The notes under the pieces are model-generated. The model did no database searches and was not told the DNA's origin. It saw nothing but the letters and a program-made list of their open reading frames with translations. 64,000 nt of DNA, taken from the NCBI RefSeq assembly GCF_000226095.1, contig NC_016473.1, positions 1 to 64,000 on the forward strand. The letters run 5' to 3'. A program made the translations under genes and the position numbers. Source of the DNA: Thermothelomyces thermophilus ATCC 42464 (taxonomy: Eukaryota > Ascomycota > Sordariomycetes > Sordariales > Chaetomiaceae). This document shows, piece by piece, positions 6,748 to 27,594 of this stretch; position 1 is the stretch's first letter; each line of letters begins with the position of its first letter.

Positions 6748-6749
<2 letters not shown>

Positions 6750-6777
<28 letters not shown>
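6750..6777. repeat. T28 homopolymer in element C
   Basis: A run of 28 T on the plus strand. It corresponds in position to the A24 run of element D (26767-26790), the pyrimidine tract of the putative intron of the antisense gene. Retention of the tract in a RIP-degraded sibling shows it predates the divergence of C and D. Confidence 0.85.
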
Positions 6778-6780
<3 letters not shown>

Positions 6781-9700
6781 ATGATTCTTGATGTTTGTTC
6801 TAGTAGATTGCATTCTTTAGGAGTAGCGTCGTATCAAAGATGCTGAACGTCGTGCCGAACTTGAGCTAGATAAATCCTAACGCCGTCTAGAAGAGGCCTA
6901 GTGTAAGTTATCCGAAAAGCTTATACGGCTCCGGCGTCTTCGTTAGCAGAAGGAGTTTTTGGTAGAGAAAGGTGCCGATATAGTAGCGTGTAGTCTGTTA
7001 ACCTTAGACGAGTTGGAGGAGGTTGAGTGGCAAGAGATGCCTGCTATGCCCTCGTTATAGATTAATAATGCCGTCGATGCTATCGACTAGGGCGCTATCT
7101 TTAGTCCTGTCCTGGGTTTTCCTTTAGTCGATCCGGGTTCTACTAGTAGAACTGTTCCAGTTTCTTAGGGCAGTTCAAATTCTTGACTAGTTCCTATAAG
7201 TTGTCTTCTAGTCCGAAATCAAGCTATTTGACCAGGTACTATAGTTCCCCGTTAATAATATATGAATCTAGAATTTCTTCGACGTCCTATTCTTCCTCTT
7301 TGTCCTCTGCTTCGATGTATATAGCAACCTTGGCGTTCTTTGGTGCTAGTTCGAGAAGTGAAATATGAAAAACATCCGTCTATAGTCGTATAGATAACGG
7401 TAACGATAGTCGGTAGTTAGATGTCGAAATTCGTTCTTTGATAACGAAGGGTCTGACCTTCTTGAAGTCTAGCTTCGTGCTTGGTCGTTTGGTTCGTAAG
7501 TTCCGTATAATCAAGTAGACTTTGTCTCCCCTCTCTAGGCGAGGTCCTTCGAGCCTATGTTTGTCGTAGTAGTTCTTTATTCTGGTCTTGACAAACTCGA
7601 GTTCCTTTTTAAGCTTTTCATGCAGTGTATACATTTGTTCCGCTTTGACTGCTACTCTCGGCACTGTAACCCCTGGTCCTTGCCTAAGGTCTGCTTTATA
7701 TCCGTAGTTCGCGAAGAACGGTATGACTTTGGTCGTTTCTGTTAGCGTCGTGTTATAAGCGAGTTGTGCTATTAGTAATAGTATGACCTAGTCGTTTTGC
7801 TGGTAGTTGATATAAGAGCGGAGGTACTGCTTAATAACTTGGTTTAGTCGCTCCGTTTGTCTATCAGTCTGTAGGTGATATGCCGTTAATAACTTACTGT
7901 TAATGCCTAATCGTTATATTAACGCTTGCTAGAATTTCGACGCGAACTTGGTGTCTCTATTGGTGATCTATTCTTGTGGCTAAGCATATACTGATGTAAC
8001 TTGCCGATAGATTACGTCTGCTAACTATTCTACTGTCTAGGACTCCTTATAGGGAAAGAAGTATGCCCACTTAGTCAGGCGATCTACTATAGTAAGAATA
8101 CTATCGTAGGTCACTCCTATAGCTATGTCCTTAGATTCCGGCAGCTTTATAATGAAGTCTATTATGACTAAACTCTATAGTTTATTAGCTGTTAGTAGTG
8201 GCTAAAGTAGCCTATATAGCTTATGTTATGCCGTTTTGCTCTAATTATAGATATTATAGTTCCGTACAACTTCCTTAACTTATACCGTTAACTATAGAAA
8301 GTCGTAGTGTTTCTTAACTTATATGACAGTCTTCGTAACTCCTTTGTGTCCTCCGAGTTTTGACTTATAGAGTTCTCGAATCATTCGTAGCTATTGATCT
8401 TTATCATGGATATATACTTTGCCTTGGTATCAGAGTTTCCCATCTTTTTCTTCTACTCCGTTAGGTACCAGTGGTCCGGGTGCTACTTGATACTATATCT
8501 CGTTGATCCTTTCTTTTTGAAAGATTGCGTAGCATTCTAGGAACGAGTCGAGTGGATTATCTTCTACGGGTGTCTGCGTCTCGTGATGTAGCGTTCCGTC
8601 TGTCCGTTCCTTGAACAACGGTGGTGTCGTTCCCGTTCGTCCTTCCGTGTGATCCGTTCGTCGACTTAAGATGTCCGCTCGTACGTTCTCTTTGCCCTTC
8701 TTATAGCGGATCTCAAAGTTGAATTCCGCGAGGAATTCTGCCTATCGTATTTGTCGTCCGTTAAGTTCCTTTATCGTCGTAAAGTATCGTAAATTCTTGT
8801 GATCCATATATACTTGTACCGGTTCAATCGTGCCGCTAAGGTATAGTCGCCATTCCTTGAAAGCTTCGACAATCGTAAGTAGTTCCTTATTATAGATCGG
8901 ATAATTAAGACGTAGTCTATCGAGCTTCTTTGAAAAGAAGGCTATAGGATGTAGCTTTCCTTGTCTGTCTCGTTATCCTAATTGTCTTCTGATGGCGTAG
9001 TCTAAAGCGTCCGTTTCTACCTCGAATAGCTTCTTAGGGTCTAGTAGTACTAGTACTAGGTCTTTGGTAATGGCGTTCCGGATCTACGTAAATGCTTACT
9101 CGTGTTATTCTTCCCATTAGAATTTAGTATTCTTCTTAGTGAGTTTGTATAAAGGTTATACGATCGCTCTAAAGTTCCTAATGAACATCCGGTAGAAGTT
9201 TACAAATCCGATGAAGCTTCGTACTTCCGTGACTGACGTCGGTCGTAGCCAATTCTTGATAGCTTTAACCTTTAAAGGTTCCATCCGGATTTGTCCTAGG
9301 GATATCTCGTATTCTAGAAACACCATTTTCCTAACGTAGAATTCGCTCTTTTCCTTGTTAACTAATAGCTTGTACGCGTATAGTGCGTCTAGCACTGCTT
9401 TTACGTACTTCTAGTATTCGTCTATCGTCTTGGAGAAGATGAGTATGTCGTCGAGATAATATACCGCAAATTTGTCGAGAAAGGGTCAGATAGCTTGATC
9501 AATTAGGGCTTAGAACGTTGCCGGCGCGTTTGTAAGTCCAAATGGCATGACGAGGTACTCATAGTGGCTATAGGGTGTCCTAAAGGCCGTTTTCCACTCG
9601 TCGCCTTCTTTAATCCGTATATAGTTATAGGCTAATAGCAAGTTAAGACGCGTAAAATATTAGGCTCCTGCTAACTAATCTCGGAGCCGTGAGATTAGCA

Positions 9701-12700
9701 GTAACGGGTATCGATTTTTCACAGTCTGTTTGTTAAGTTACCAATAGTCGACGTATAACTATAGCTTTCCGTCTTTCTTAGGTATAAATAGGATTAGGTA
9801 GCCTACTAGCGATGTCAACGGGCGGATATATCCTCTTTGAAGGTTCTCCTCCAAATATCGCTTAAGTTCTTCGTTCTATATCTAGCTCGTATAGTAAATC
9901 TTAAAGAACTTTAGTCATGCTCCTTCCTTAAGCTTGATCTCGTGATCCTATAGGCCGTATTCTAGTAGTCCTTCCAGATGTTTCGGTTCGAATGCTAGGT
10001 ATCCTTCGTATTCCTTTAGTGCTTCCCTAGTCTTGTCTCATCTCTCGGTTTTCTAGTAGTATACGAACTTGGTTCCGTCTATAGCGATACTAGCGATTTC
10101 TCCTGTCTCGACCTACTACTCTAATTGCAGTGTTCCGCATTCGTTGACGGAGAGAACAGCTATCGGTAATTTAGCTTGTTCCTCCTATCGCGATATCGAT
10201 ATCGTTATGCCGCCTCTTCCAGAGTCTGTAGTGGTCTGCCTGCCACTATCTGTCTCTTGTGGTAGATCCGTAGGATATGCCTTTCCTTAAGCATCGTCTA
10301 CTCGCGATCCTTGTACGCTCCCCATCTCGCTAGTCAAATACGACTCCGTTCGGGGTTGTAGGTAGCCACTATTCTTCCAGCTAATGTCTAGGTTATAGTC
10401 TTCATGCTATAGTAACCCTAATATTATATCTTTGTCATTGCCCATGTCTACGATACTAAATACAACTGCTATAGTCCTTCCTACTATAGTAATATCGATC
10501 GGTTCGGTCTCCTTACGTACCTATTACGTCGGAAATGGCCCTTTAACTATACTATGCTTCCGCTTTATTCTCTAGGGTATCCGTAGCTAATTTACAAGTG
10601 TCGGCGAAATCAGATTTATCTCTACTCCACTATCTACTAGTACGAGCATTTCGTGCTATTTCCACTATGCTGTTATCTATAATTGCTTGTCTTGCCGCCG
10701 TTATCTAAAGATTGCAGCGATTTCCTATGTTTCCGCCGGGAGGTCTCGATATAGTGGTCTCTTACGCTAGTCCCTCCTATACTGCGCTACTACTCACCGC
10801 TACGTAGGCGTTAATGGTTTCTAGGCCCCTCGAAGGGCCCTAACCCGTTTCCCAGGTCAGTACTAACCTCTTCGGTTGTTCGGCTAATAGCAGCTTCGTC
10901 AATCGTACTTATTTCCGTAAGCTATTAAGTGCTTGCGGTTTCCTACCATTAGGTCTATTCCGCTTTCCGTCGTACGTACTATAGCTTCGTCTAAAGCTCC
11001 TGAATTTGTAATTTCTTTTCTTCCGTATGATAGAGGCAATCGTTACTCTAGCACGAGTCCTATATATCTCGTCCGGTTCCGTAGTGCCTAGGCCAGGCTC
11101 GTCTTAGAACTATTATAATGCTTTCTAAATTATAGGCTTCGATCTTCCAGAGCAATTCGGCCGCTCTGTTTCCTACATCGTAGACCTATTCCGCAGGGCG
11201 TAAGCTTCCGTCCTCATTTCCTTGTCAGGTCGGCCAGTGATTGTTTTCGAATTTGTCGCGGAAGTAGTATCGGCATTCGTATGCTATACACTAGAACCAG
11301 GGCACTTACGCATATGCCTCGTATCGAGGGTATAGTCGCGTAGCGTCGCCTAGGAGGTATTAGAATTCTTTCCCAAATCCTTCCCATTATACGTAGACTA
11401 TAGGTACTCTAGTACTAACATAGGAGTATTTCTTCTAGTAGCTTTCCTACGTACGCTCATCTTTTCCGCGGTTCGCGTGTATAAACTAGTATTCTAGGTT
11501 TCGTACGTCGTTACTAAGTTACTAGCCGTCAAGATACTTGGTGTAGCTATCAGGCCCATCGTATATTACAGGCTATTCTCCTTTAATGGTTTCCACGATA
11601 CGTTAGAGTTCCCTTATCTCGTCCCTCATTCTATCGCTCTACTAGGCAAGTCGAATCAAGCGTCCATCCCGTTCACGTAGTTCTACGTTAAGCCGAAAAA
11701 CTTTGTTACGATACTATTCGATTCGTTCCTAGAGGAATAGAACATTAGGTCTAGGTCTTTCGATTCCTTAGGTGTCGATTGTCCACGATCTATCCCGCCT
11801 CTACGTGACCGTGAAACCCCACTGCCTCAAGGCTAGGAGAATCGAAACTGGCGGTGCATACTCTCCTGCCATGTCCTATTTGGCAAGACCTGTCTCTAGG
11901 TCTACAGTGACCAGTTCGGAGTACGGTGCTTGTTCGTCTTTACCGTCGCCGTCGTGTCCGAGACTGTCCGTGTCACTGCCCTTGTCTTTATAGCTTGTAG
12001 CCGCTACTTCGATGACGTCCTTAGTAGTTTCGTCGATAGCCGTAACTTCCTTTCTAGGGACTATCTTCTATTCTTTCTTCGGGCTACGACATTCTCGCTT
12101 ATAGTGCCCTTTCTTTCTGTAATTGTAGTAGGTAACATTAGACTTGTCTTTGGTCGTCTTCTTCTGGTCCTACTTTTGCGCTACGTCTATATCTATAGCT
12201 CTAGGATACATCCTATACAAGGTACTAACGTACGCTTGCTTTTTCTTATCGTTAGCCTTAACCATAGTTCTGTTCATTCGACCTCGTTTTTACTACTCTT
12301 ATATGTAGAGTCGATCATCGATTCTAATAGCCTATATAATGTATTTGTCTAGGGTCTTAGGCCGGTCGTACTTATATAGCTCATCCTTAACCTTTTCCTT
12401 TAAGCTATTATAGAATAGTTACATCAACGCCTTGTCGTTAAGCTAAGACTTAAGCATGTCCTATCTAAACTATATGGCGTAGGAGGCTACTAACTTGGTC
12501 TATCGGAGATTGGCGAGTCTTTCTTATATATAAATCTTCTCGTCTTTATCGCCGAAAACCTTTCAAAGCTCTTCTTCGAAACGGTCGTAAGATCGGAAGA
12601 CTGCCTATATAAACACGTCTCGGTCGTCTTCGTCTTCCTTAATAAGATAGTTGTTCTATATAGGCTCGAACCATCTAAGTGCCTTACCCTCCAGTCTTAT

Positions 12701-13099
12701 AGCTACGTAGAGGACTTTGGCTTTGTCGTCCGGAAACTTGTCGTTATTAAGCCGGAAGTAGGATCGGAGGTTTGTCAGGAATCCTACAAGATCCTCCTTA
12801 GTTCCTCCGTATTTACTAGGTAGTTCGATCTTAATACGGCTCGCCTTGGCGGTCTCGAGCGCTTCGATTTTGGTATAAGCCTCGTTAACCAACTTCTACG
12901 AGTACTTTTCGCGATTCTCGAGTTCCTTGATTCGAGCTTAAGTAGCCTTGTCTCTCTAGTCCAACTCCTAGATCCGCTGCTAGAGTTGACTAAGCTAGGC
13001 GAGCAGTTATTCGGCCGTGACGTCGGTAGCCATGTCGGTATCGAGGTCGAAGTCACCTCCGTTCTGAACTATGACAGAACAAAGGGAGTAGTAACAATG

Positions 13100-13547
13100 T
13101 GTGACGAACCTAACTCAGACTTCTTCTGAAAGGGTCCAGACGGAGGTAGGTGAAGCGGGACAAGCAGGCAGGTCGTCTAAGGGATTCGGTGAAGCCAAGG
13201 GGTTTATAACAACACTTAGAGTTGTCTCTTACAGTAATCAGCAATACTTGGTATAAGTACTATGATTGTGATTGTTACCACTGGCGAACTCCCAGAGTCC
13301 ACTATAACGAGTGACTAGCTAGCTATATATATACAATGGTCTATCCTTCTTTAATAGTTATCACTAGTACTACTTCTCCTTTTACTTCGTGATTCTGCGT
13401 TGTCGACGGTGATATATTATTATCACTAGTGAAGACCTTAGTCTTGGCGGTAATAATCTTCTGATTGGTCCGTCGAGTGATTGGCTATCGGAATGTCCCG
13501 TGTCCTAGCTACAGCCTGCCAGGCCGCCCATGTGCTTATCCGTGACA
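13100..13547 (-). repeat. LTR of element C (5' LTR in element orientation)
   Basis: A 448-bp copy next to the reverse-oriented gag start near 13060. It is followed immediately by the ATTAG target duplication and then by resumed element B sequence. Confidence 0.93.
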
Positions 13548-16500
13548 ATTAGGGTTACTATAGTATAAAGACTACGACCTAGACATTAGCTAGAAGAATA
13601 GTAGCTACCTATAACCCCGAATGGAGTTATATTTAACTAGCGAGATAGGGAGCATGCAAGGATCGCGAGTAGATAATGCTTAAGGAAAGGCATATCCTAC
13701 GGATCTACCGCAAGAGACAGATAGTGGCAGGCAGACTACTATAGACTCTAGAAGAGGCGGTACAACGATATCGATATCACGACAGGAGGAACGAGCTAAA
13801 TCGCCAATAGCTGTTCTCTCTATTAACGAATGTAGAGCACTATAATAGGAGTAGTAGGTTGAGATAGGAGAAATCGCCAGCATCGCTATAGACGGAACCA
13901 AGTTTGTATATTACTAGAAAACCGAGAGACGAGATAAGACTAGGGAAGTACCGAAGGAATATAAAGGACACCTAGCATTCGAACCGAAACATCTAGAAGG
14001 ACTACTAGAATATGGCCCATAGGATTACGAGATCAAGCTTAAGGAAGGAGCATGACTAAAGTTCTTTAAGATTTACTATATAAGCTAGATATAGAACGAA
14101 GAACTTAAGTGATATTTAGAGAACCTTCGAAGAGGATATATCTGCCTATCGATATTACTAGCAGGCTACCTAATCCTATTTGTGCCTAAGAAAGATAGAA
14201 AGCTACGGTTATATATTGACTATTAGCAACTTAACAAACAGACCGTGAAAAACTAATACCTGTTACTACTAATCTTACGGCTCTAAGATTAGTTAGTAGG
14301 AGCCTAATATTTTACACGTCTTGACTTGCTATTAGCCTATAACTATATATAGATCAAAGAAGGCAACAAGTGGAAAACGGCCTTTAGGATACCCTATAGC
14401 CACTATAAGTACCTTGTCATGCCATTCGGACTTACAAACGCGTTAGTAACGTTCTAAGCCCTGATTAATCAAGCTATCCTACCCTTTCTCGACAAATTTA
14501 TAGTATATTATCTCGATAATATACTTATCTTCTCTAAGACGATAGACAAATACTAGAAGTACGTAAAAGTAGTACTAGACATACTATATACATACAAGCT
14601 ATTAGTCAACAAGGAAAAGAGCGAATTCTATATTAGGAAGACAGTCTTTTTAGGATACAAGATATCCCTAGGACAAATCCAAATAGAACCTTTAAAGGTT
14701 AAAGCCATTAAGAATTAGCTATAACTAACGTTAGTTACAGAAGTACGAAGCTTTATTAGATTTGCAAACTTCTACCAGATGTTTATTAGGAACTTTAGAG
14801 CGATCGTATAACCTTTATACAAACTTACTAAGAAGAATGCTAAATTCTAATAGGAAGAACAATATAAGCAAGTATTTACGTAGATTCGTAACGCCATTAC
14901 CAAAGATCTAGTACTAGTACTACCAGACCCTAAGAAGCCATTTGAGGTAGAAACGGACGCTTTAGACTATGCCATCAGAGGATAATTAGGATAACGAGAT
15001 AGATAAGGAAAGCTATATCCTATAGCCTTCTTTTCAAAGAAGCTCGATAGACCATGTCTTAATTACCTAATCTACGATAAGGAACTACTTGCGATTGTTA
15101 AAGCTTTCAAGGAATAGCAACTATACCTTAGTAGTACGATTAAACTAGTACAAGTATATATAGATCATAAGAATTTATAGTACTTTACGATAACAAAGGA
15201 GCTTAACAGACGACAAATACGATAGGCAGAATTCCTTATAGAATTTAACTTTGAGATCTGTTACAAGAAGGGCAAAGAGAACGTATAAGTAGACATCTTA
15301 AGTCGACGAATAGATTATATAGAAGGACGAACGGAAACAATACCACCATTGTTCAAGGAACGTACAGACGGAACGCTACATCACGAAACGTAGATACCTG
15401 TAGAAGATGATCTACTTGACTCGTTCCTAGAATGCTATACAATCTTTCGAGAAGAAAGGATCAACGAGGTATAGTATTAAGTAGTACCTAGACTAGTAGT
15501 ACCTAACAGAGTAGAAGAAAAAGATAGGAAACTTTAATACCGAGGCAAAGCGTATATCTATAACAAAGATCAATAGCTATAGATGATTCGAGAACTCTAC
15601 GAGTCGAAACTTAGAGGATATAAAGGAGTTACGAAGACTATCGTACAAGTCAAGAAATACTATGACTTTCTATAGTTAATAGTACGAGTTAAGGAAGTTA
15701 TATAGAGCTACGACATCTGTAATCGAAGCAAAACGGCACGATATAAGCTATATAGGCTACTTTAGCCACTGCTAATAGCTAATAAACTATAGAGTTTAGT
15801 TATAATAGACTTCATTACAAAGCTGCCAGAATCTAAGGACACAGCCATAGGAGTAATCTATAATAGTATTCTTACTATAATAGACTACCTAACTAAATAG
15901 GTATACTTCTTTCCCTATAAGGAGTCCTAGATAGCCAAATAACTAGCAGACGTAATCTATTAGCAAGTTATATTAGTATATGCTTAGCCGTAAGAATAGA
16001 TTACCGATAGAGATACCAAGTTCGTGTCAAAGTTTTGGCAAGCGTTAATACAACGATTAGGCATTAATAGCAAGCTATTAACGGCATATTACTTATAGAC
16101 TAATAGACAAACAGAGCGACTAAACCAAGTTATTAAGTAGTACCTCTGCTCTTATGTCAACTACTAGTAAAACGACTAAGTCATGCTATTGCCAATAGTA
16201 TAACTCGCTTACAACACAATGCCAACAGAAACAACCAAAGTCATACCATTCTTCGCGAACTACGGATATAAAGTAGACCTTAGGCAAGGACTAGAGGTTA
16301 TAGTGCCGAGAGCAGTAGTCAAAGCGGAACAAATGTATACACTATATGAAAAGCTTAAAAAGGAACTTAAGTTTGTCAAGACCAGAATGAAGAACTACTA
16401 TAATAAATATAGGCTCGAGGGACCTTACCTAGAGAGGGGAGACAAAGTCTACCTGATCGTACAAAACTTATAAACCAAATGACTAAGCACAAAGCTAGAC

Positions 16501-17939
16501 TTTAAGAAGGTTAGACCCTTTATTATTAAAGAATGAATTTCGACATCTAACTACTAACTATCGTTACTATTATCTATACGACTATAGATAGATGTTTTTC
16601 ATATTTCACTTCTCGAACCAGCACCGAAAAACGCTAAGGTTGCTATGTATATCGAAGCAAAAGACGAGGAAGAAGAATAGGACGTCAAAGAAATTCTAGA
16701 TTTATATATTATCGATAGGGAACTATAGTACCTAGTCAAGTGGCTTGATTTCGGACTAGAAGATAACTTATAGGAACTAGTTAAGAATTTAAACTGCCCT
16801 AAGAAACTAGAACAGTTCTATCGGCAAAACCTAGATCGGCTAAAGGCAAATCTAGGACAGAACCGAAAATAGCGCCCTAGTCAATAACGTCGATGCCACC
16901 ATTAAGCTATATAATGGCCCCCGATTCCTGCTATTCTACTACCTCTAATTTGTCTAGATTTGACAAACCCTATATAACTATATCTACCCCCTTCTCTACT
17001 AGGAACTCTCATTATTTATAGACCTAAGTTAGACAGGCTAATGCCTTAGAAGCTTTATATTAATATTCTTATAGCAAGGCTTTGGCCTCTTTCTCTTTAG
17101 CCTTTAAACGACGTTGCTCGCGTATAATACGATTTACTACGTTATAATCAGAGATATACTCTTATAAGGAAACGGGAACTTACAAGAAGAAACTAGAACG
17201 CTAGAACTATTATAAGCATGACCCCGACATATATAAGCCTTATAGCAATAAGATTTTTTAATCATCTTATATACTCGGTTATACTCCGTGTAATAAGAAC
17301 ACGCTATTACTGCAAACCTATAATCGGAAATAAACTAAGCTAAACGCTCACAACAAATAGATGCTAGGGATCTATATACATTAGACAGTATAACTAATAG
17401 CACAAAGGGCAATAAGAGGCTAAGGAGAAAAACACGTACAAGGAATGTAAGGGATGTTAGCGCTATTTAAGACGGCCTAAAGAGGGCTTTCAGGTCGAAA
17501 GCCTCGGAGGGAGGGCATCGTATCACAGAAATATATATACAGATGCCGCCTAAGCCACTGGCACAAATAGGCTAATCAAGTCAAAGGAACAAAAGGACTA
17601 ATCATAGCATAGGAAGCATAGTGATCACTACGCTCACCAGTGATCAGGGTAATCATCGCCATACGATCACTCACGATCACCGTAATCAGGAATAATCACT
17701 AGGATTATATATACATATAGATAGTCACTCGTTATAGTAGACTCTAGGAGTTCGCCAGTGGTAATAATTATAATCATAGTACTTATACCAAGCATTGCTG
17801 ATTACTGTAAGAGACAACTCTAAGTGTTGTTGTGAACCCTTTGGCTTTACCGAATCCCTTAGACGACCTGTACGCCTGTCCTGCTTTACCTACCTCCGTC
17901 TGGACCCTTTTAGAAGAAGTCTGAGTTGGGTTCGTCACA
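13548..17939 (+). mobile_element. Ty3/gypsy chromovirus fossil B, right part
   Basis: Continuation of element B after the insertion of C. It carries the pol region (protease remainder, reverse transcriptase, RNase H, integrase, chromodomain), a 3' region of about 0.6 kb, and the 3' LTR at 17521-17939. It aligns throughout with 23120-27594 of D, except that the post-pol region and the first half of the LTR are clearly more divergent. It is RIP-like with many breaks. Confidence 0.9.
17521..17939 (+). repeat. 3' LTR of element B (about 419 bp)
   Basis: It matches 2852-3270 along its whole length apart from RIP-type transitions. It ends in TTCGTCACA and is followed by CATTT, the target duplication, where element A resumes. 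Confidence 0.9.
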
Positions 17940-19765
17940 CATTTGTATAATATATACTAGAACTAGGGCACTTATATATATGCCTTGTATTATAAGTATA
18001 GTCATATAACGTTGCCTAGAAGGTATTAGAATTCTTTTCTAAATTCTTCCTACTATATATAGACTGTAGGTACTCTAATGCTAAGGTAAGAGTATTTCTT
18101 CTAGTAGTTTTCCTATATACGTTTGTCTTTTCCGTGGTTTATATATATAAACTAGTACTCGGGGTTTTATATGTTGTAGCTAAGTTACTAATCATTAAAA
18201 TGCTTAGTATAGCTATTAGGCCTATCGTACATTATAGGCTATTCCCCTTTAATAGTTTCTATAATACGTTAAAGTTCCCTTATCTCGTCCCTCATCTTAT
18301 CGCTCTACTAGGCAAGTCAAATTAAGCGTCTATCCCGTTCGTATAGTTCTATATTAAGCCAGAAAACTTCATTACGATACCATTCGATTTGTTCCTAGAG
18401 GAATAGAATATTAGGTCTAGGTCTTTCGATTCCTTAGGTATCGGTCGTCTACAATCTATCCTACCTCTATATAACTATGAAACCCTACTGCCTTAGGGCT
18501 AGGAGAATCGAAATTAGTAGTGTATACTCTCCTACCGTGTCCTATTTGGCAAGACCTATCTCTAGGTCTACTATGACTAGTTCGGAGTATAGTGCTTGTT
18601 CGTCTTTACTATCGCCGTCGTATCCGAGACTGTCTATATCGCTGTCCTTGTCTTTGTAGCTTGTAGCCGCTACTTCGATAACATCTTTAGTATTTTCGTT
18701 AATAGCCGTAATTTCCTTTCTAGGGACTATTTTCTACTCTTTCTTCGGGCTTTGACATTCTTACTTATAATGTCCTTTCTTTCTATAGTTATAGTAAGTA
18801 ACATTAGACTTATCTTTAGTTATCTTCTTTTAGTCCTACTTCTATACTATATCTATATCTATAGCTCTAGAATATATCCTATATAAGGTGCTAACGTATA
18901 CTCGTTTTTTCTTATCATTAGCCTTAACTATAGTTCTATTTATTTAACCTTATTTCTACTACTCTTATATATAAAGTTAATTATCGATTCTAATAGCCTA
19001 TATAACATATTTATCTAGGGTCTTAGGCTAGTTATACTTATATAGCTTATCTTTAACCTTTTCCTTTAAGCTATTATAAAATAGTTATATTAATACCTTA
19101 TTATTAAGCTAAGACTTAAGTATATCCTATCTAAACTATATAATATAAGAGGCTATTAACTTAGTCTATTAAAGACTAGCAAGTCTTTCTTATATATAAA
19201 TCTTCTTATCTTTATTACTAAAAACCTTCTAAAGCTCTTCTTTAAAATAGTTATAAGATCAAAAGACTACCTATATAAATATATCTTAGTTATCTTTATC
19301 TTCCTTAATAAGATAGTCATTCTATATAGGCTTAAACTATCTAAATACCTTACCCTCTAGTCTTATAGCTATATAGAGGACTTTAGCTTTATCGTCTAGA
19401 AACTTATTATCATTAAGCTAGAAGTAAGATCAGAGGTTTGTTAGGAATCTTACAAGATCCTCCTTAGTTCCTCTATATTTACTAGGTAGTTCGATCTTAA
19501 TACGGCTCGCTTTAGCGCCTTCGAGTGCCTTGATTTTGGCGTAGGCCTCGTTAACCAGCTTCTACAAGTGCTTTTCGCCGTTTTCGAGTTCCTTAATCCG
19601 AGCTTAAGTAACCTTGTCTCTCTGGTCCAACTCCTGGATCCGCTGCTGGAGTTGACAGAGCTAGGCGAGCAGCTGTTCGGCCGTGACGTTGGTAGCTATG
19701 TCGATGTCGAGGTCGAAATCACCTCTGTTCTGAGCCATGATAAAACAAAGGGAGTGATAGCAACG
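17940..19765 (-). mobile_element. Ty3/gypsy chromovirus fossil A, inner part
   Basis: Continuation of element A beyond the insertion of B. It contains the rest of gag in reverse orientation, with the gag start near 19738, and the short leader. It ends at a rearranged LTR stub (19766-19809). The stretch nearest the gag start (about 19500-19765) is noticeably less decayed than the rest of A. Confidence 0.88.
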
Positions 19766-19809: not shown

Positions 19810-19994
19810 TGCCCTAGCTTATAGGGCCTCGAACTTCTATAAGCCTACTAAGCTAGGGGGTAAGCTAGAAGGCCTTACTAGGGAGCTATTAAGGGCCTAA
19901 TATAGGGCCCTTTAAGTGGTTACTAGGGCCTATAAGGCTACCCCTATCTGGTACCTTAAAATAGAAGCCTAGGTACCGCCCCTTGACCTCTATC
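19810..19994 (+). mobile_element. Tad-like LINE fragment, left part
   Basis: Conceptual plus-strand frames give fragments resembling the RNase H/C-terminal region of fungal Tad1-clade LINE proteins, such as KATPI followed a few residues on by VPPLDLY, in a sequence full of stops. It is interrupted by element D inside the Asp-Leu-Tyr-Leu stretch and continues at 27595. The LINE is 5'-truncated; its left limit coincides with the LTR stub. AT-biased CpA-to-TpA changes suggest RIP. Confidence 0.7.
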
Positions 19995-20443
19995 TGTCAC
20001 GAATAAGCACATGGGCGGCCTGGCAGGCTGCAGCCAGGACGCGGGACATTCCGACAGCCAATCACTTGACGGACCAATCAGAAGATTATCACCGCCAAGA
20101 CTAAGGTCTTCACTGGTGATAATAACATGTCACCGTCGACAACGCAGAATCACGAAGTGAAAGGAGGAGTGGTACTGGTGATAACTATTGAAGAAGGACA
20201 GACAATTATGTATATATAGCTAGCTAGTCACTCGTTATGGTGGACTCTGGGAAGTTCACCAGTGGTAACAATCACAATCACAGTACTCATACCAAGCATT
20301 GCTGATTACTGTGAGAGACAACTCTAAGTGTTGTTGTGAACCCTTTGGCTTCACCGAATCCCTCAGACGACCTGCCTGCTTGTCCTGCTTCACCCACCTC
20401 CGTCTGGACCCTTTCAGAAGAAGTCTGAGTTGGGTTCGTCACA
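19995..20443 (+). repeat. 5' LTR of element D (449 bp)
   Basis: It begins TGTCACGAATAAG and ends GGGTTCGTCACA, giving the usual TG..CA termini. Two CCAAT boxes lie at 20058-20062 and 20074-20078, and a TATATATA box at 20210-20218. I read no difference from the 3' copy. Confidence 0.96.
20058..20271 (+). promoter_or_regulatory. LTR promoter of element D with inferred start at 20261
   Basis: Two CCAAT boxes (20058, 20074) precede a TATA box (20210-20218). The 11 bases at 20261-20271 (AGTGGTAACAA) are exactly complementary to the 11 bases just inside the LTR (20446-20456). In Tf1-type self-priming the 5' end of the RNA anneals to that site, so transcription, and hence R, should begin at about 20261, some 45 bp after the TATA box. 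The motifs are seen directly; the start site is inferred. Confidence 0.65.
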
Positions 20444-20445
20444 CG

Positions 20446-20456
20446 TTGTTACCACT
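20446..20456 (+). promoter_or_regulatory. Self-primer binding site of element D
   Basis: TTGTTACCACT begins two bases after the 5' LTR, where tRNA-primed elements have a site starting TGG. No such tRNA-type site is visible. Instead the 11 bases are the exact complement of AGTGGTAACAA inside the LTR (20261-20271). The 11-base length matches the self-primer of the fission yeast element Tf1. The same complementarity can be read between the 5' LTR and leader of fossil B. Confidence 0.7.
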
Positions 20457-20470
20457 CCCTTTGTTCTGTC

Positions 20471-22732
20471 ATGGTTCAGAACGGAGGAGACCTCGACCTC
20501 GACACCGACATGGATACCAACGTCACGGCCGAACAACTGCTCGCCCAGCTTGGTCAACTCCAGCAGCGGATCCAGGAGTTGGACCAGAGAGACAAGGCTG
20601 CTCAAGCTCGAATCAAGGAACTCGAGAACCGCGAAAAGTACTCGCAGAAGTTGGTCAACGAGGCCTACGCCAAAATCGAGGCACTCGAGGGCGCCAAAGC
20701 GAAGCGCATCAAGATCGAACCACCTGGCAAATACGGAGGAACCAAGGAGGATCTCGCAGGATTCTTGACAAACCTCCGATCCTACTTCCGGCTCAATGAC
20801 GACAAGTTTCCGGACGACAAAGCCAAAGTCCTCTACGCAGCCACGAGACTAGAGGGCAAGGCACTCAGATGGTTCGAGCCTACGTGGAACGACTATCTCA
20901 CCGAGGAAGACGAAGACGACCGAGACGCGTTCACGCAGGCAGTCTTTCGATCCTACGACCGTTTCGAAGAAGAGCTTCGGAAGGTCTTTGGCGACAAAGA
21001 CGAGAAAATCCATGCGCAAGAAAGACTCGCCAATCTCCGACAGACCAAGTCAGCAGCCTCCTACGCCGCACAGTTCAGACAGGACATGCTCAAGTCTCAG
21101 CTTAACGACGAGGCGTTGATGCAATTGTTCTATAACGGCTTGAAGGAAAAGGTCAAGGACGAGCTGTACAAGTACGATCGGCCTGAGACTCTGGACGAAT
21201 ACATCGCGCAGGCCATCAGGATCGATGATCGACTCTACGCACGAGAGCAGCAGAAACGAGGTCGAATGAACGGAACCACGGTTAAGGCCAACGACAAGAA
21301 AAAGCGAGCGTACGTCAGTACCTCGTACGGGACGCACCCCGGAGCCATGGATGTGGATGCAGCGCAGAAGCAGGACCAGAAGAAGACGGCCAAAGACAAG
21401 TCTAATGTTACCTGCTACAACTGCGGAAAGAAAGGGCACTACAAGCGAGAATGCCGAAGCCCGAAGAAAGAATGGAAACCAACCCCTGGAAAGGAAATTG
21501 CGGCCATCGACGAAACCACCAAGGACGTCATCGAAGTAGCGGCCACGAGCTACGAAGACAAGGGCAGTGACACGGACAGTCTCGGACACGACGGCAACGG
21601 TGAAGACGAACAAGCACCGTACTCCGAACTGGTCACTGTGGACCCAGAGACAGGTCTTGCCGAATGGGACATGGCAGGAGAATATGCACCGCCAGTTTCG
21701 ATTCTCCCAGCCTTGAGGCAGTGGGGTCTCACAGTCACGCAGAGGCGGGATGGATCGTGGACAACCGACACCCAAGGAATCGAAAGACCCGGACCCAATG
21801 CTCTATTCCTCCAGGAACGAATCGAATGGTACCGCAACGAAGTTTTCCGACTCAACACGGAACTGCGCGAACGGGATGGGCGCTTGACTCGACTCGCCCA
21901 GCAGAGCGAAGAGATGAAGGACGAAATGAGGGAACTCCGACGTATCGTGGAAGCCATCAAAGGAGAACAGCCTGTGACATATGATGGGCCCGATAGCTAC
22001 GCCGAGTACCTTGACGATCAGCAACTCAGCAACGACGTGCGGAACCCAGAATACCAGTTCATGCGCGCGAACCGCGGAAAAGACGAACGCACGTGGGAAA
22101 GCTACTGGAAGAAACACTCCTATGTCAGCACTGGAGTACCTACGGTCCACGTACAATGGGAAGGATTCGGGAAAGAATTCCAATACCTCCCAGGCGACGC
22201 CATGCGACTGCACCCTCGACACGAGGCACATGCGCAAGTGCCCTGGTTTCAGTGTGTGGCACACGAATGTCGATATCACTTCCGCGACAAATTCGAAAAC
22301 AATCATTGGCCGACCCGACAGGAAAACGGGGACGGAGGCTTACGCCCTGTGGAATGGGTCTACGATGCAGGAAACAGAGCGGCCGAATTGCTCTGGAAGA
22401 TCGAAGCCCGCAATTCAGAAAGCATCACGATAGTTCCAAGACGAGCCTGGCCTAGGCACTGCGGAACCGGACGAGACACATGGGACTCGTGCTGGAGCAA
22501 CGATTGCCTCTATCACGCGGACGAAAAGAAATTGCGAATTCGGGAGCTTCAGACGAAGCTATGGCACGCACGACGGAAAGCAGAACGGACCCAATGGTGG
22601 GAAGCCGCAAGCACTCAATGGCTCACGGAAATGAGCACGATCGACGAAGCCGCTATCAGCCGAACAACCGAAGAGGTCAGCACTGACCTGGGAAACGGGT
22701 CAGGGCCCTTCGAGGGGCCCGGAAACCATTAA
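20471..22732 (+). CDS. gag: Gag-like protein of element D, 753 aa, with long C-terminal extension
   Basis: Structural protein of the chromovirus. The N-terminal ~75 residues are coiled-coil-like (QQRIQELDQRDKAAQARIKE). A retrotransposon-gag domain follows at about 80-230, including an FLTNLRSYF...ALRWFEPTW core. A CCHC zinc knuckle (CYNCGKKGHYKREC) sits at about residues 315-328. Beyond the knuckle lie another ~420 residues, unusually long for gag: an acidic segment, a second coiled coil near 460-500, and two Cys/His clusters (about 595-613 and 663-688) that could bind zinc. The start is the first ATG after the priming site. The end overlaps the pol frame, which lies one base back. No breaks are seen. 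Confidence 0.9.
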   Translation: MVQNGGDLDLDTDMDTNVTAEQLLAQLGQLQQRIQELDQRDKAAQARIKELENREKYSQKLVNEAYAKIEALEGAKAKRIKIEPPGKYGGTKEDLAGFLTNLRSYFRLNDDKFPDDKAKVLYAATRLEGKALRWFEPTWNDYLTEEDEDDRDAFTQAVFRSYDRFEEELRKVFGDKDEKIHAQERLANLRQTKSAASYAAQFRQDMLKSQLNDEALMQLFYNGLKEKVKDELYKYDRPETLDEYIAQAIRIDDRLYAREQQKRGRMNGTTVKANDKKKRAYVSTSYGTHPGAMDVDAAQKQDQKKTAKDKSNVTCYNCGKKGHYKRECRSPKKEWKPTPGKEIAAIDETTKDVIEVAATSYEDKGSDTDSLGHDGNGEDEQAPYSELVTVDPETGLAEWDMAGEYAPPVSILPALRQWGLTVTQRRDGSWTTDTQGIERPGPNALFLQERIEWYRNEVFRLNTELRERDGRLTRLAQQSEEMKDEMRELRRIVEAIKGEQPVTYDGPDSYAEYLDDQQLSNDVRNPEYQFMRANRGKDERTWESYWKKHSYVSTGVPTVHVQWEGFGKEFQYLPGDAMRLHPRHEAHAQVPWFQCVAHECRYHFRDKFENNHWPTRQENGDGGLRPVEWVYDAGNRAAELLWKIEARNSESITIVPRRAWPRHCGTGRDTWDSCWSNDCLYHADEKKLRIRELQTKLWHARRKAERTQWWEAASTQWLTEMSTIDEAAISRTTEEVSTDLGNGSGPFEGPGNH
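22690..22720 (+). promoter_or_regulatory. Programmed -1 frameshift signal between gag and pol
   Basis: GGGAAAC (22690-22696) is a canonical X_XXY_YYZ slippery heptamer and sits in the gag reading phase as G GGA AAC. Six bases downstream a GC-rich hairpin begins: arms GGGCCC at 22703-22708 and GGGCCC at 22715-22720. The pol frame is one base back from gag and is open from this point. Ty3/gypsy elements are known to make Gag-Pol by frameshifting or read-through. Sequence and phase are seen; function is inferred. Confidence 0.7.
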
Positions 22733-22737
22733 CGCCC

Positions 22738-25700
22738 GTGCAGCGGCAAGTGGTAGCGCAGTACAGGAGGAACTGGCGCAAGGGACCACTATATCGAGAC
22801 CTCCCGGCAGAAACATGGGAAATCGCTGCAATCTTTGGACGACGGCGGCAAGACAAGCGACTGTGGATAACAGCACAATGGAGACAGCACGAAATGCTCG
22901 CACTAGTGGACAGTGGAGCAGAGATGAATCTGATTTCGCCGACACTTGTGAATCAGCTACGGATACCCTGGAGAATGAAGCGGAAGCATGGCATAGTCAA
23001 AGGGCCATTTCCGACGCAATGGGTACGCAGAGAGACCGAACCGATCGACATCACTGTGGCAGGGAAGACCACAGCAGTCGTATTCAGCATCGTGGACATG
23101 GGCAACGACAAAGACATGATATTGGGGTTACCATGGCATGAAGATTACGACCCGGACATCAGCTGGAAGAATGGTGGCCACCTGCGACCCCGAACGGAGT
23201 CGTATTCGACCAGCAAGATGGGGAGCGCGCAAGGATCGCGAGCGGACGATGCTCAAGGAAAGGCATGTCCTACGGATCCACCGCAAGAGACGGACAGTGG
23301 CAGGCAGACCACTACGGACTCTGGAAGAGGCGGCACAACGACATCGATATTGCGACAGGAGGAACGAGCTGAATCGCCGATAGCTGTTCTCTCCGTTGAC
23401 GAATGCGGAGCACTGCAATTGGAGCAGTGGGTTGAGACAGGAGAAATCGCCAGTATCGCCATGGACGGAACCAAGTTCGCATACTATCAGAAAACCGAGA
23501 GACGAGACAAGACTGGGGAAGTACCGAAGGAGTATGAGGGACACCCAGCATTCGAACCGAAACATCTGGAAGGATTACCAGAACACGGCCCATGGGATCA
23601 CGAGATCAAGCTCAAGGAAGGAGCACGACTGAAGTTCTTCAAGATTTACCACACGAGCCAGACGCAGAACGAAGAACTTAAGCGATATTTGGAGGAGAAC
23701 CTTCGAAGAGGACATATCCGCCCGTCGACATCGCCAGCAGGCTACCCAATCCTGTTTGTGCCAAAGAAAGACGGAAAGCTACGGTTATGTGTCGACTATC
23801 GGCAACTCAACGAACAGACCGTGAAAAACCGATACCCGTTACCGCTGATCTCACGGCTCCGAGATCAGTTGGCAGGAGCCCAATATTTCACGCGTCTTGA
23901 CTTGCCATCGGCCTACAACCACATACGGATCAAAGAAGGCGACGAGTGGAAAACGGCCTTTAGGACACCCTATGGCCACTACGAGTACCTCGTCATGCCA
24001 TTCGGACTTACGAACGCGCCGGCAACGTTCCAAGCCCTGATTGATCAAGCTATCCAACCCTTTCTCGACAAATTTGCGGTATGTTATCTCGACGACATAC
24101 TCATCTTCTCCAAGACGATGGACGAACACCGGAGGCACGTGAAAGCAGTGCTGGACGCGCTGCACGCGTACAAGCTATCAGTCAACAAGGAAAAGAGCGA
24201 ATTCCATGTCAGGAAGACAGTCTTTTTGGGATACGAAATATCCCCCGGACGAATCCGGATGGAACCTTCAAAGGTTGAAGCCATCAAGAATTGGCCACAA
24301 CCAGCGTCAGCCACGGAAGTACGAAGTTTCATCGGATTTGCGAACTTCTACCGGATGTTCATCAGGAACTTTGGAGCGATCGCACGACCTTTGCACGAAC
24401 TCACCAAGAAGAATGCTGAATTCCAATGGGAAGAGCAACACGAGCAAGCATTCACGCAAATCCGCGACGCCATTACCGAAGATCCAGTACTGGTACTGCC
24501 AGACCCCAAGAAGCCATTCGAGGTGGAAACGGACGCTTCAGACTACGCCATCGGAGGACAATTGGGACAACGAGACGAACAAGGGAAGCTACATCCTGTA
24601 GCCTTCTTTTCAAAGAAGCTCGACGGACCACGTCTCAATTATCCGATCCACGACAAGGAACTACTTGCGATTGTCGAAGCTTTCAAGGAATGGCGACCAT
24701 ACCTCAGCGGCACGATTGAACCGGTACAAGTGTATACGGATCACAAGAACTTGCGATACTTCACGACGACGAAGGAACTCAACGGACGACAAATACGATG
24801 GGCAGAATTCCTCGCGGAATTCAACTTCGAGATCCGCTACAAGAAGGGCAAAGAAAACGCACGAGCAGACATTTTAAGCCGACGAACGGATCACACGAAA
24901 GGACGAACGGGAACAACACCACCGTTGTTCAAGGAACGAACAGACGGGACGTTGCACCACGAAACGCAGACACCCGTGGAAGATGATCCACTTGACTCGT
25001 TCCTAGAATGCTGCGCAATCTTTCGAGAGGAAAGGATCAACGAGGCACAGTATCAAGCAGCACCCGGACCAGTGGTACCTGACGGAGTGGAAGAAAGAGA
25101 TGGGAAACTCTGGTACCGAGACAAAGCGTACATCCACGACAAGGATCAACAGCTGCGAATGATTCGAGAACTCCACGAATCAAAACTCGGAGGACACAAA
25201 GGAGTCACGAAGACTGTCGCACAAGTCAAGAAGCACTACGACTTTCCACAGTTAACGGCACGAGTTAAGGAAGTCGTACGGAACTGCGACATCTGCAATC
25301 GGAGCAAAACGGCACGACACAAGCCGTACGGGCTACTTCAGCCACTACCAACAGCTGACAAACCATGGAGTTCAGTTGCGATGGACTTCATCACGAAGCT
25401 GCCAGAATCCAAGGACACAGCCACAGGAGTGACCTACGACAGTATTCTTACTGTAGTAGATCGCCTGACTAAGTGGGCATATTTCTTTCCCTACAAGGAG
25501 TCCTGGACAGCGGAACAGTTGGCAGACGTGATCTATCGGCAAGTTGCATCAGTGCATGCTTGGCCGCAAGAATGGATCACCGACAGAGACACCAAGTTCG
25601 CATCGAAGTTCTGGCAAGCGTTAATGCAACGATTAGGCGTCAACAGCAAGCTGTCAACGGCATATCACCCGCAGACCGACGGACAAACGGAGCGACTAAA

Positions 25701-26481
25701 CCAAGTTGTTGAGCAATACCTCCGCTCTTACGTCAATTACCAACAAGACGACTGGGTCATGCTGTTACCAACAGCACAACTCGCCTACAACACGACGCCG
25801 ACAGAAACGACCAAAGTCACACCGTTCTTCGCGAACTACGGATATGAAGCAGACCTTAGGCAAGGACCAGAGGTCACAGTGCCGAGAGCAGCAGTCAAAG
25901 CAGAACAGATGCACGCACTGCATGAAAAGCTCAAAAAGGAACTCGAGTTTGTCAAGACCAGAATGAAGAACTACTACGACAAACACAGGCTCGAGGGACC
26001 TCGCCTAGAGAGGGGAGACAAAGTCTACCTGATCGCACGAAACTTGCGAACCAAACGACCAAGCACGAAGCTGGACTTCAAGAAGGTCGGACCCTTCGTT
26101 ATCAAAGAACGAATCTCGACATCCAACTACCGACTATCGTTACCGTCATCTATGCGACTACGGACGGATGTTTTTCATATTTCACTTCTCGAACCAGCAC
26201 CAAAGAACGCCAAGGTTGCCACGCACATCGAAGCAGAGGACGAAGAGGAAGAATGGGACGTCGAAGAAATTCTGGATTCACGCATCATCAACGGGGAACT
26301 GCAGTACCTGGTCAAATGGCTTGATTTTGGACCAGAGGACAACTCATGGGAACCAGTCAAGAATTTGAACTGCCCTGAGAAACTGGAACAGTTCCACCGG
26401 CAGAATCCGGATCGACCAAAGGAAAACCCGGGACAGAACCAAAGACGGCGCCCCAGTCGACAGCATCGACGGCATCATTAA
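22738..26481 (+). CDS. pol: Pol polyprotein of element D with C-terminal chromodomain
   Basis: Numbered from 22738, the domains in order are: aspartic protease with catalytic DSGA at Asp58; reverse transcriptase with YLDD at 450-453; RNase H around Asp599 (ETDASDYAIGG); integrase with an HHCC zinc finger (HESKLGGHKG... CDICNRSK) and a DDE core at Asp883, Asp949 and Glu985, the last two separated by 35 residues as expected; and a chromodomain at about 1172-1212 (EWDVEEIL...YLVKWLDF). The chromodomain defines a chromovirus and in relatives directs insertion to modified histones. The frame has no ATG at its head and remains open upstream into the gag overlap, fitting frameshift expression. It looks whole. 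Confidence 0.93.
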   Translation: MQRQVVAQYRRNWRKGPLYRDLPAETWEIAAIFGRRRQDKRLWITAQWRQHEMLALVDSGAEMNLISPTLVNQLRIPWRMKRKHGIVKGPFPTQWVRRETEPIDITVAGKTTAVVFSIVDMGNDKDMILGLPWHEDYDPDISWKNGGHLRPRTESYSTSKMGSAQGSRADDAQGKACPTDPPQETDSGRQTTTDSGRGGTTTSILRQEERAESPIAVLSVDECGALQLEQWVETGEIASIAMDGTKFAYYQKTERRDKTGEVPKEYEGHPAFEPKHLEGLPEHGPWDHEIKLKEGARLKFFKIYHTSQTQNEELKRYLEENLRRGHIRPSTSPAGYPILFVPKKDGKLRLCVDYRQLNEQTVKNRYPLPLISRLRDQLAGAQYFTRLDLPSAYNHIRIKEGDEWKTAFRTPYGHYEYLVMPFGLTNAPATFQALIDQAIQPFLDKFAVCYLDDILIFSKTMDEHRRHVKAVLDALHAYKLSVNKEKSEFHVRKTVFLGYEISPGRIRMEPSKVEAIKNWPQPASATEVRSFIGFANFYRMFIRNFGAIARPLHELTKKNAEFQWEEQHEQAFTQIRDAITEDPVLVLPDPKKPFEVETDASDYAIGGQLGQRDEQGKLHPVAFFSKKLDGPRLNYPIHDKELLAIVEAFKEWRPYLSGTIEPVQVYTDHKNLRYFTTTKELNGRQIRWAEFLAEFNFEIRYKKGKENARADILSRRTDHTKGRTGTTPPLFKERTDGTLHHETQTPVEDDPLDSFLECCAIFREERINEAQYQAAPGPVVPDGVEERDGKLWYRDKAYIHDKDQQLRMIRELHESKLGGHKGVTKTVAQVKKHYDFPQLTARVKEVVRNCDICNRSKTARHKPYGLLQPLPTADKPWSSVAMDFITKLPESKDTATGVTYDSILTVVDRLTKWAYFFPYKESWTAEQLADVIYRQVASVHAWPQEWITDRDTKFASKFWQALMQRLGVNSKLSTAYHPQTDGQTERLNQVVEQYLRSYVNYQQDDWVMLLPTAQLAYNTTPTETTKVTPFFANYGYEADLRQGPEVTVPRAAVKAEQMHALHEKLKKELEFVKTRMKNYYDKHRLEGPRLERGDKVYLIARNLRTKRPSTKLDFKKVGPFVIKERISTSNYRLSLPSSMRLRTDVFHISLLEPAPKNAKVATHIEAEDEEEEWDVEEILDSRIINGELQYLVKWLDFGPEDNSWEPVKNLNCPEKLEQFHRQNPDRPKENPGQNQRRRPSRQHRRHH

Positions 26482-27018
26482 TCTGTGACGAGGGCATAGC
26501 AGGCGTCTCTTGCCGCTCAACCTCCTCCAACTCGTCCAAGGTCGACAGACCACGCGCCACCATGTCGGCACCTTTCTCCACCAAAAACTCCTTCTGCTGA
26601 CGAAGACGCCGGAGCCGCGCAAGCTTTTCGGACAACTCGCGCTGGGCTTCTTCCAGACGGCGTTGAGATTCATCCAGCTCAAGTTCGGCACGACGTTCAG
26701 CATCCTTGATACGACGCTGCTCCTGGAGAATGCGATCCACTAGAACGAACATCAGGAATCACATTCAAAAAAAAAAAAAAAAAAAAAAAAGAAGAAGAAA
26801 ACGTGCTTACAGGAAGAAAGCGGTATGCCAGAGCCATCGCAAGAACGACCTCGACGAACGCAGGCTTCGCAACGCTTCGTACGCGCGATCATTTTGCAAA
26901 CGAGGCCTTGCGACGCGCACCAAGAGCAAGGCATAACGACAAAACCGTTCTCAGCGATGTTCTGAGCAAGGGAAGCACGGTAACGTGCAGAATGCGACTT
27001 CCGTTTCTCTATCGGCAT
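26357..27018 (-). CDS. Antisense two-exon gene in element D: Zn2Cys6 plus coiled coil, 196 aa
   Basis: On the strand opposite gag-pol, exon 1 (27018-26811) and exon 2 (26739-26357) are separated by a 71-nt GT..AG intron containing a 24-T tract. The lengths sum to 197 codons including the stop. Exon 1 starts at an ATG in good context and carries Cys at residues 31, 34, 41, 50, 53 and 60, exactly CX2CX6CX8CX2CX6C, the Zn2Cys6 signature of fungal Gal4-type DNA-binding domains. Exon 2 encodes a long charged coiled coil (RIKDAERRAELELDESQRRL) and an acidic tail. Exon 2 overlaps the last ~41 codons of pol in antisense. The protein may bind DNA and regulate the element or host, but no function is shown. 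I recall similar Cys-rich hypothetical proteins in other Sordariomycetes. A regulator captured by the element is one explanation; a domesticated silencing or control factor is another. Confidence 0.65.
26767..26790. repeat. A24 homopolymer in element D
   Basis: Run of 24 A on the plus strand. On the minus strand it is the pyrimidine tract of the putative intron 26740-26810. The matching tract in fossil C is 28 long. Confidence 0.95.
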
Positions 27019-27109
27019 TTTGTCAACATGGCGACCACGACGCAGAAACAGGGAGAATGCAGTACTCACAAGCGAAGGGTTGTTGGCGCTATTTGAAACG
27101 GCCTAAGAG

Positions 27110-27140
27110 GGCTTTCGGGTCGAAAGCCTTGAAGGAGGGG
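27110..27140 (+). promoter_or_regulatory. Conserved hairpin and polypurine tract before the 3' LTR of D
   Basis: GGCTTTCG-GGT-CGAAAGCC (27110-27128) is a perfect 8-bp stem with a 3-nt loop. The purine run GAAGGAGGGG (27131-27140) follows and lies 5 bases before the 3' LTR, where a polypurine tract primes second-strand synthesis. The stem can also be recognised in fossil C (near 6418-6436) and fossil B (near 17483). It lies in the leader side of the antisense gene, so it may act on either strand. Confidence 0.6.
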
Positions 27141-27145
27141 CATCG

Positions 27146-27594
27146 TGTCACGAATAAGCACATGGGCGGCCTGGCAGGCTGCAGCCAGGACGCGGGACAT
27201 TCCGACAGCCAATCACTTGACGGACCAATCAGAAGATTATCACCGCCAAGACTAAGGTCTTCACTGGTGATAATAACATGTCACCGTCGACAACGCAGAA
27301 TCACGAAGTGAAAGGAGGAGTGGTACTGGTGATAACTATTGAAGAAGGACAGACAATTATGTATATATAGCTAGCTAGTCACTCGTTATGGTGGACTCTG
27401 GGAAGTTCACCAGTGGTAACAATCACAATCACAGTACTCATACCAAGCATTGCTGATTACTGTGAGAGACAACTCTAAGTGTTGTTGTGAACCCTTTGGC
27501 TTCACCGAATCCCTCAGACGACCTGCCTGCTTGTCCTGCTTCACCCACCTCCGTCTGGACCCTTTCAGAAGAAGTCTGAGTTGGGTTCGTCACA
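27146..27594 (+). repeat. 3' LTR of element D (449 bp)
   Basis: It reads the same as 19995-20443 and is followed by the CTATC target duplication. Its U3 on the minus side lies about 130 bp upstream of the antisense Zn2Cys6 start codon and could supply that gene's promoter (inference). Confidence 0.96.

Follow-up and report, generated by a model that had tools for sequence, protein, structure and literature searches.

The window, by which we mean the whole stretch of 64,000 nucleotides analysed here, corresponds to the first 64 kb of contig C2 in a genome of 38,744,216 bases and seven contigs. It opens with CCCTAA telomere repeats (1-300), and one of its retrotransposons, element D, sits in a subtelomeric, RIP-rich region and carries a gene on the strand opposite gag-pol. 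The features of element D, together with the antisense-gene remains of two other elements in the window, are as follows:

19995-27594, gag-pol on +: element D, with two LTRs, CTATC target duplication, gag and pol
19995-20443, +: 5' LTR of 449 bp, identical to the 3' LTR, with CTATC at 19990-19994 (sequence)
20471-22732, +: gag, 753 aa, Retrotrans_gag/Ty3_capsid and zinc knuckle (ORF, Pfam)
22738-26481, +: pol, with protease-like region, RT, RNase H, integrase and chromodomain (ORF, Pfam)
26357-26739, -: antisense exon 2, a charged coiled-coil-like helix followed by an acidic/aromatic tail over the pol end (26357-26481)
26740-26810, -: predicted intron of 71 bp, GT-AG, with a T-run of 19-33 in 17 near-identical copies (sequence, alignment)
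26811-27018, -: antisense exon 1, with a basic N-terminus and the six-cysteine cluster CX2CX6CX8CX2CX6C (sequence; silent-site excess)
27019-27145, no strand assigned: spacer, containing the antisense 5' leader, a possible antisense promoter, the block GGCGCTATTTGAAACGG (27085-27101) and the polypurine tract
27146-27594, +: 3' LTR of 449 bp, with U3 taken as 27146-27375, a boundary that is assumed (sequence, alignment)
6528-7186, +: type-1 antisense gene, with stops, of the RIP-marked nested element C (element on -)
16784-17137, -: exon 2, with stops, of a diverged antisense gene of the RIP-marked element B

Element D has the LTRs, the gag and the pol with RT, RNase H, integrase and chromodomain that define a Ty3/gypsy chromovirus; the integrase core (PF00665) scored 30.5 bits versus a cut-off of 32.6, and the integrase zinc-binding domain lay above cut-off. 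A reading made beforehand from the sequence alone had taken the host element to be a young chromovirus, and the identical LTRs, the CTATC duplication and the chromodomain in pol bear this out. The pol frame is open for 1264 codons from stop to stop and overlaps the end of gag in another frame (22687-22738), an arrangement that would fit a -1 frameshift, and about 420 residues of gag past the zinc knuckle (21460-22732) had no Pfam match above cut-off. Elsewhere in the window, element B (+, 2846-17940) is interrupted by element C (-, about 5952-13546), and from 29000 to 64000 the GC content is mostly 0.45-0.63, a part that may contain host genes.

The antisense gene starts with an ATG at 27018, its first exon ends at the donor GTAAGC, the intron has a CTGAT branch-like site and a TAG acceptor, and the stop codon TGA lies at 26357-26359. 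Joined, the two predicted exons give a reading frame of 591 nt (196 residues plus stop), so that the two exons, the GT..AG intron and the 197 codons described by the sequence-only reading were reproduced at 26357-27018 on the reverse strand, as was the spacing CX2CX6CX8CX2CX6C of the six cysteines in exon 1 (residues 31, 34, 41, 50, 53 and 60). Of the coiled coil that had been assigned to exon 2, a heptad pattern is indeed seen; however, it is modest, with a best hydrophobic fraction of 0.52 at the a/d positions and a shuffle p of 0.011. A further point needed correction: the last 125 bp of exon 2 (26357-26481) also belong to the end of pol.

A DNA search of the same genome gave 40 scored copies of the gene; 18 of these, counting that of the window itself, were 99-100% identical. 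A protein search with exon 1 gave at least 150 matches. For the study of selection 79 loci (L009-L087) were aligned, and removal of five repeats (L048, L049, L050, L079 and L087) resulted in 74 copies; in the case of L079 and L087 the alignment had picked a nearer copy already counted, and their own more diverged copies are absent from the counts. Seventeen of the 74 copies have at most one exon difference from the window sequence, and in the remainder most differences are C>T/G>A changes, which we take to be the mark of RIP. Given that this one type of change dominates, non-RIP changes were counted apart, and the expected silent counts were obtained by placing identical changes at random on the same bases (20,000 permutations). 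In exon 1 and the coil, 27 of 37 distinct non-RIP changes were silent versus 10.5 expected, a count reached by none of the 20,000 permutations, and for the changes shared by at least two copies the figure was 15 of 19 (5.1 expected). The RIP-type changes serve as an internal control and show no bias (65 of 196 silent, 64.9 expected). This combination leads us to conclude that the protein was maintained in the source elements. In the tail that overlaps pol, non-RIP changes in the same 74 copies showed no silent excess (4/11, 4.3 expected).

The length variation gives a similar picture. Among the 17 near-identical copies every length change falls within the T-run of the intron and no exon indel is present; their intron lengths fall in all three classes modulo 3, and the exons keep their frame. 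The sole recurrent exon indel is an insertion of 9 bp (17/74 copies), and the single-copy ones occur in diverged copies (1 bp in L026, L031, L039 and L083; 116 bp in L053). Sense coding was rejected as the source of the codon periodicity, as each sense frame contains two to four stops across 26482-27018. The antisense gene is thus a real gene with two exons, whose protein is under purifying selection. A dN/dS near 1 together with unconserved cysteines had been named in advance as what would speak against the gene; when tested, silent changes were in excess and the cysteines were kept.

The genome has at least four versions of the gene (types 1, 2, 3 and 5, type 1 being that of element D), whose cysteine exons are 35-59% identical. 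All six cysteines are kept in all four despite this divergence; types 1, 3 and 5 have the spacing CX2CX6CX8CX2CX6C, and type 2 has CX2CX7CX9CX2CX7C, that is, one residue more in three of the intervals. Type 2 was found through a second stop-free pol group in a Pfam RT search, for which six loci were fetched. Its pol is 97% identical in protein to that of element D (residues 341-1241), and its antisense gene, located in the same place and orientation, is intronless, has 212 codons, is 28% identical to the element D gene (tblastn E 4e-9) and is present in at least 15 copies without stops. Types 3 and 5 are likewise homologous to type 1 and occupy the same place and orientation. In type 3 (L094-L096) a predicted intron of 47 bp matches that of type 1 in position and phase, with an unusual donor, GTCCGT; 75 of 147 residues are identical between types 1 and 3, with 88, 95 and 54 identical bases at the first, second and third codon positions, respectively, the third being the least conserved. 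The type-5 gene was found in L097 and L098 and is closest to type 3 in the cysteine exon (59%), both having the GGATCAC motif in U3. The heptad pattern recurs, with shuffle p values of 0.008 in type 3 and 0.027 in type 2. An antisense position within 200 bp of the pol end was found in 46 of 46 loci (L048-L093), of which 40 had been chosen by an antisense-gene match, five of these repeating other copies, and six by RT. Two observations concern the sequence upstream of the gene. An upstream ATG lies about 15 bp or less before the antisense start in types 1, 2 and 3 (27016-27029 in the window), which may point to translational control, and in type 5 the nearest one seen lies further up. The spacer block GGCGCTATTTGAAACGG is identical in types 1-3 and is a candidate antisense promoter core or part of the priming region.

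Between types 1 and 2, the pol dS is only 0.137 (866 codons), the antisense proteins are identical at 48 of 126 residues, and the boundary near 26420 is sharp. Rapid drift of the gene alone is disfavoured by these observations, and exchange with a more distant element is the likelier origin of the difference.

We then compared the segments of types 1, 2 and 3 (pairs 1-2, 1-3 and 2-3, in this order). The pol end is 98, 94 and 94% identical and R-U5 97, 95 and 95%, versus 54, 59 and 55% for the antisense core and 57, 60 and 59% for U3, where shuffled sequences reach about 51%. The antisense gene and the LTR promoter region U3 are thus the most divergent of the compared segments. The spacer between them is better kept (72, 82 and 70%), so that two diverged stretches flank a more similar one. 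For the part of the antisense tail that overlaps pol, the values are 51, 88 and 49%. The U3s of types 1-3 have CCAAT and TATA boxes in common, and between these boxes sit repeated sites, which in element D are:

27237-27244, -: U3 repeated site TTATCACC (5' LTR copy at 20086-20093)
27266-27273, +: U3 repeated site GGTGATAA (5' LTR copy at 20115-20122)
27328-27335, +: U3 repeated site GGTGATAA (5' LTR copy at 20177-20184)

The type-1 U3 therefore holds TTATCACC once and GGTGATAA twice, which amounts to three copies of one 8-mer (shuffle p 0.001). As an array it is weak (shuffle p 0.027 for 7-mers and 0.26 for 6-mers), without regular spacing, and in 35 loci the sites, which make up 10% of U3, showed no significant depletion of non-RIP changes: none of the 17 shared changes fell in them (1.8 expected), and 6 of the 71 changes overall did (7.4 expected). 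The other versions have stronger arrays. In type 2, GATCGCA occurs five times (0/5000 shuffles). In type 3, five exact copies of GGATCAC (0/5000 shuffles) and a near-match, GTGATCT, form half-sites at U3 positions 91, 108, 125, 142, 159 and 176, on alternating strands and with a step of 17 bp; five exact copies in this register compare with a longest run of three in 3000 shuffles. As the 6-mer test missed this array with its strand-alternating half-sites, the 7-mer test was used. The 17-bp spacing is held in all five type-3 loci, with variable spacers and some RIP-altered half-sites, and in L104 the sixth half-site is an exact GTGATCC. The sites in the type-5 U3 resemble GGATCAC but are not regularly spaced as in type 3, and the U3 of element B (about 17520-17720) has GTGATCA-like repeats. 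None of the motifs of types 1, 2 and 3 is present in either of the other two U3s, and within 6.0 kb of the element D interior they occur 0, 2 and 4 times, respectively.

By best match, the version of the gene agrees with that of the adjacent U3 in 88 of 90 distinct loci (75 of type 1, 6 of type 2, 5 of type 3 and 2 of type 5), many of which are close copies and not independent, the short flanks of L009-L047 reaching only part of U3. L093, which contains a second LTR, was counted as concordant based on its adjacent type-2 U3. Of the remaining two, the gene of element B in the window is unclassified, and L055 (2671-3489), a RIP-marked copy, has a type-1 gene beside a type-2 U3 (86.8% identity); as a natural recombinant, it indicates that template switches do take place between gene and U3. 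Neighbouring segments would travel together even without a functional tie, and since adjacency alone would give such agreement, we consider it a weaker argument than the spacer and the site arrays.

The cysteine cluster, the helix and the acidic tail suggest, from sequence, a small dimeric transcription factor. The sequence-only reading had called the cluster Gal4-type, a label that is not supported in this form. Against a cut-off of 21 bits, the Pfam Zn2Cys6 profile (PF00172) scored types 1 and 5 at 13.3 and 13.4 bits, respectively, and did not match types 2 and 3. The cysteine spacing of Zn2Cys6 proteins ranges over CX2CX6CX5-12CX2CX6-8C; types 1, 3 and 5 fall within it and type 2 deviates. 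In Gal4 a basic stretch between cysteines 2 and 3 reads CGG. The antisense proteins have at most two basic residues there (ASQGLV, ESKGLSS, FSRGLC, FKRNLA), with more of them between cysteines 5 and 6 (VRRGRS, VRNKRSN), an arrangement in keeping with the candidate U3 sites not being CGG. The likeness to Gal4-like activators thus lies in the six-cysteine spacing, the coiled-coil-like helix and the acidic tail, whereas the scores below the Pfam cut-off, the missing basic stretch and the non-CGG sites set the antisense proteins apart. Similar proteins are presumably to be recognised in many ascomycete proteomes. No relatives were confirmed in viral contigs searched with P0001, the type-2 protein, a pol segment and alignment A1, where a degenerate codon pattern gave four loci whose translations around the match were not relatives, nor in genome contigs searched with alignment A1. 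Among solved structures, 17 weak profile matches were obtained (best E 0.2), none of them a zinc cluster, and P0001 had no match.

Considering the divergent gene and the version-specific sites together, we think it probable that the element encodes its own antisense transcription regulator, which acts on the U3 of the element. Regulation of its own LTR had been one of the suggestions made from the sequence, and the pattern in the U3 promoter fits self-regulation by this candidate regulator. Under this reading, an antisense promoter in the spacer or the 3' LTR would give rise to a spliced antisense mRNA, and the protein would fold around zinc, dimerise through its helix and bind the repeated U3 sites. 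Binding in the U3 of the 5' LTR would set the level of gag-pol RNA. As the same sites in the 3' LTR lie just upstream of the antisense gene, the protein would also adjust its own level. The antisense intron would not be removed on retrotransposition, since the genomic RNA is the sense strand. Whether the regulator activates or represses is finely balanced; we lean slightly towards an activator because the tails of all four versions are, by eye, acidic and aromatic, a reading that is weakened by the lack of antisense-frame constraint on the type-1 tail over pol (4 silent of 11). The version-specific differences in gene and U3 sites are as expected if the protein controls its own element, although there are only three site classes and host factors could bind them.

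The strongest competitor, to which we give a clearly smaller though real chance, holds that the selected protein works at another place, be it host genes or chromatin, the preintegration complex or nuclear import, and that the U3 arrays are host-factor sites linked to the gene. Gene and U3 are neighbours, so that exchange of one block is expected from template switching, but such a single block gives no simple explanation for a spacer that is 70-82% identical between a gene and a U3 at 54-60%. Use of U3 by host factors is suggested by its CCAAT and TATA boxes, which are conserved; the arrays, however, differ from one protein version to the next where these boxes stay the same. Plant antisense proteins lend this alternative some weight, as Grande GENE23 is nuclear and its role is given as unknown in the parts of the report available to us (PMC7264820). 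It is improbable that the antisense transcript itself is what matters, through double-stranded RNA silencing or interference, with the protein secondary: antisense RNA regulation is discussed for retroelements in the accessible parts of the same source (PMC7264820), but the selection acts at codon level with a large silent excess, and all six cysteines persist in versions that share little at the nucleotide level. Still less credit goes to a host Zn2Cys6 gene fragment captured by transduction and standing outside the biology of the element, since, abundant as Zn2Cys6 genes are in ascomycetes, the protein is under selection and diverged versions share place and orientation (46/46 loci). A relative of the gene in the host remains conceivable, as the genome searches with antisense proteins scored up to 150 candidates each and only part of these were placed inside elements. 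Finally, long frames are common (96 ORFs of at least 100 aa on both strands of the window), but a chance antisense frame with a fortuitous cysteine pattern can be set aside, given the silent-site excess with its RIP control, the homologous genes at the same place in diverged versions of the element, the intron length changes without damage to the exon frame in 17 near-identical copies, and the absence of an open sense frame across the region.

Self-regulation by an antisense gene can be placed next to several known systems. An additional antisense gene, brtn, was reportedly found in Botrytis cinerea, in its Boty-like Ty3/gypsy elements (Zhao et al. 2011, Virology 417:248). In the parts of a later source available to us, brtn is located on BcGypsy1 (PMC8365987). 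Judged by title and description, it resembles the present case as an additional antisense gene in a fungal Ty3/gypsy retrotransposon. An antisense gene in such an element is therefore not new, brtn having preceded it. In plants, antisense ORFs between pol and the 3' LTR are described for the Ty3/gypsy elements Retand (TRP28), maize Grande (gene23), RIRE2 and PvRetro13, in the same place and orientation as the element D gene; according to the portions considered, they are present in most copies, and nuclear or DNA-binding regulators were proposed and are unproven (PMC11963269, PMC7264820). They differ in having other domains and, in Retand, a region of 2.9-6.6 kb, and the parts of these reports considered pair no protein versions with U3 site arrays. 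Among the matches listed from the open-licence literature, as far as these sources were accessible, we found no zinc-cluster gene lying antisense in a fungal retrotransposon (nor was the brtn paper among these matches), nothing relevant on transposons of this fungus, and no gene versions paired with U3 site arrays. HTLV-1 HBZ, located at the 3' LTR, is a bZIP protein with a dimerising helix and, unlike the antisense proteins, without a six-cysteine cluster; common ancestry is not claimed. Besides location and helix, the likeness is that HBZ is an antisense regulator gene of a retroelement with a nuclear product, as stated in the accessible portion of the source (PMC11963269).

A further parallel concerns the exchange of gene and sites. 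Phage immunity regions consist of a repressor and its operators, and, as there, elements that are otherwise alike differ here in a regulator-like gene and in repeated sites close to it, which have been replaced together. In contrast to phages, element D is a eukaryotic retroelement, in which binding and immunity are putative. By this analogy it is conceivable, and we put it forward tentatively, that the versions form specificity groups like phage immunity groups, in which each antisense protein would recognise only the U3 sites of its own version, the element would sense its copy number, and an element with swapped gene and U3 would escape. Group-specific self-control is known from phages and plasmids, and we know of no example from LTR retrotransposons. 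If the proposal is true, a relative with swapped gene and U3 would be able to multiply in genomes where the other version is already present, and the 3' LTR would switch in two directions, towards genomic RNA or towards regulator. The role of antisense genes in LTR retrotransposons is described as open in the parts of the literature available to us (PMC7264820, PMC11963269). Here, the likely targets are legible in the sequence as short, repeated, version-specific sites of the element's own promoter, and the role of the antisense gene is therefore directly testable. If the sites are indeed its targets, retrotransposons would have evolved element-specific pairs of regulator and site that diversify and are exchanged.
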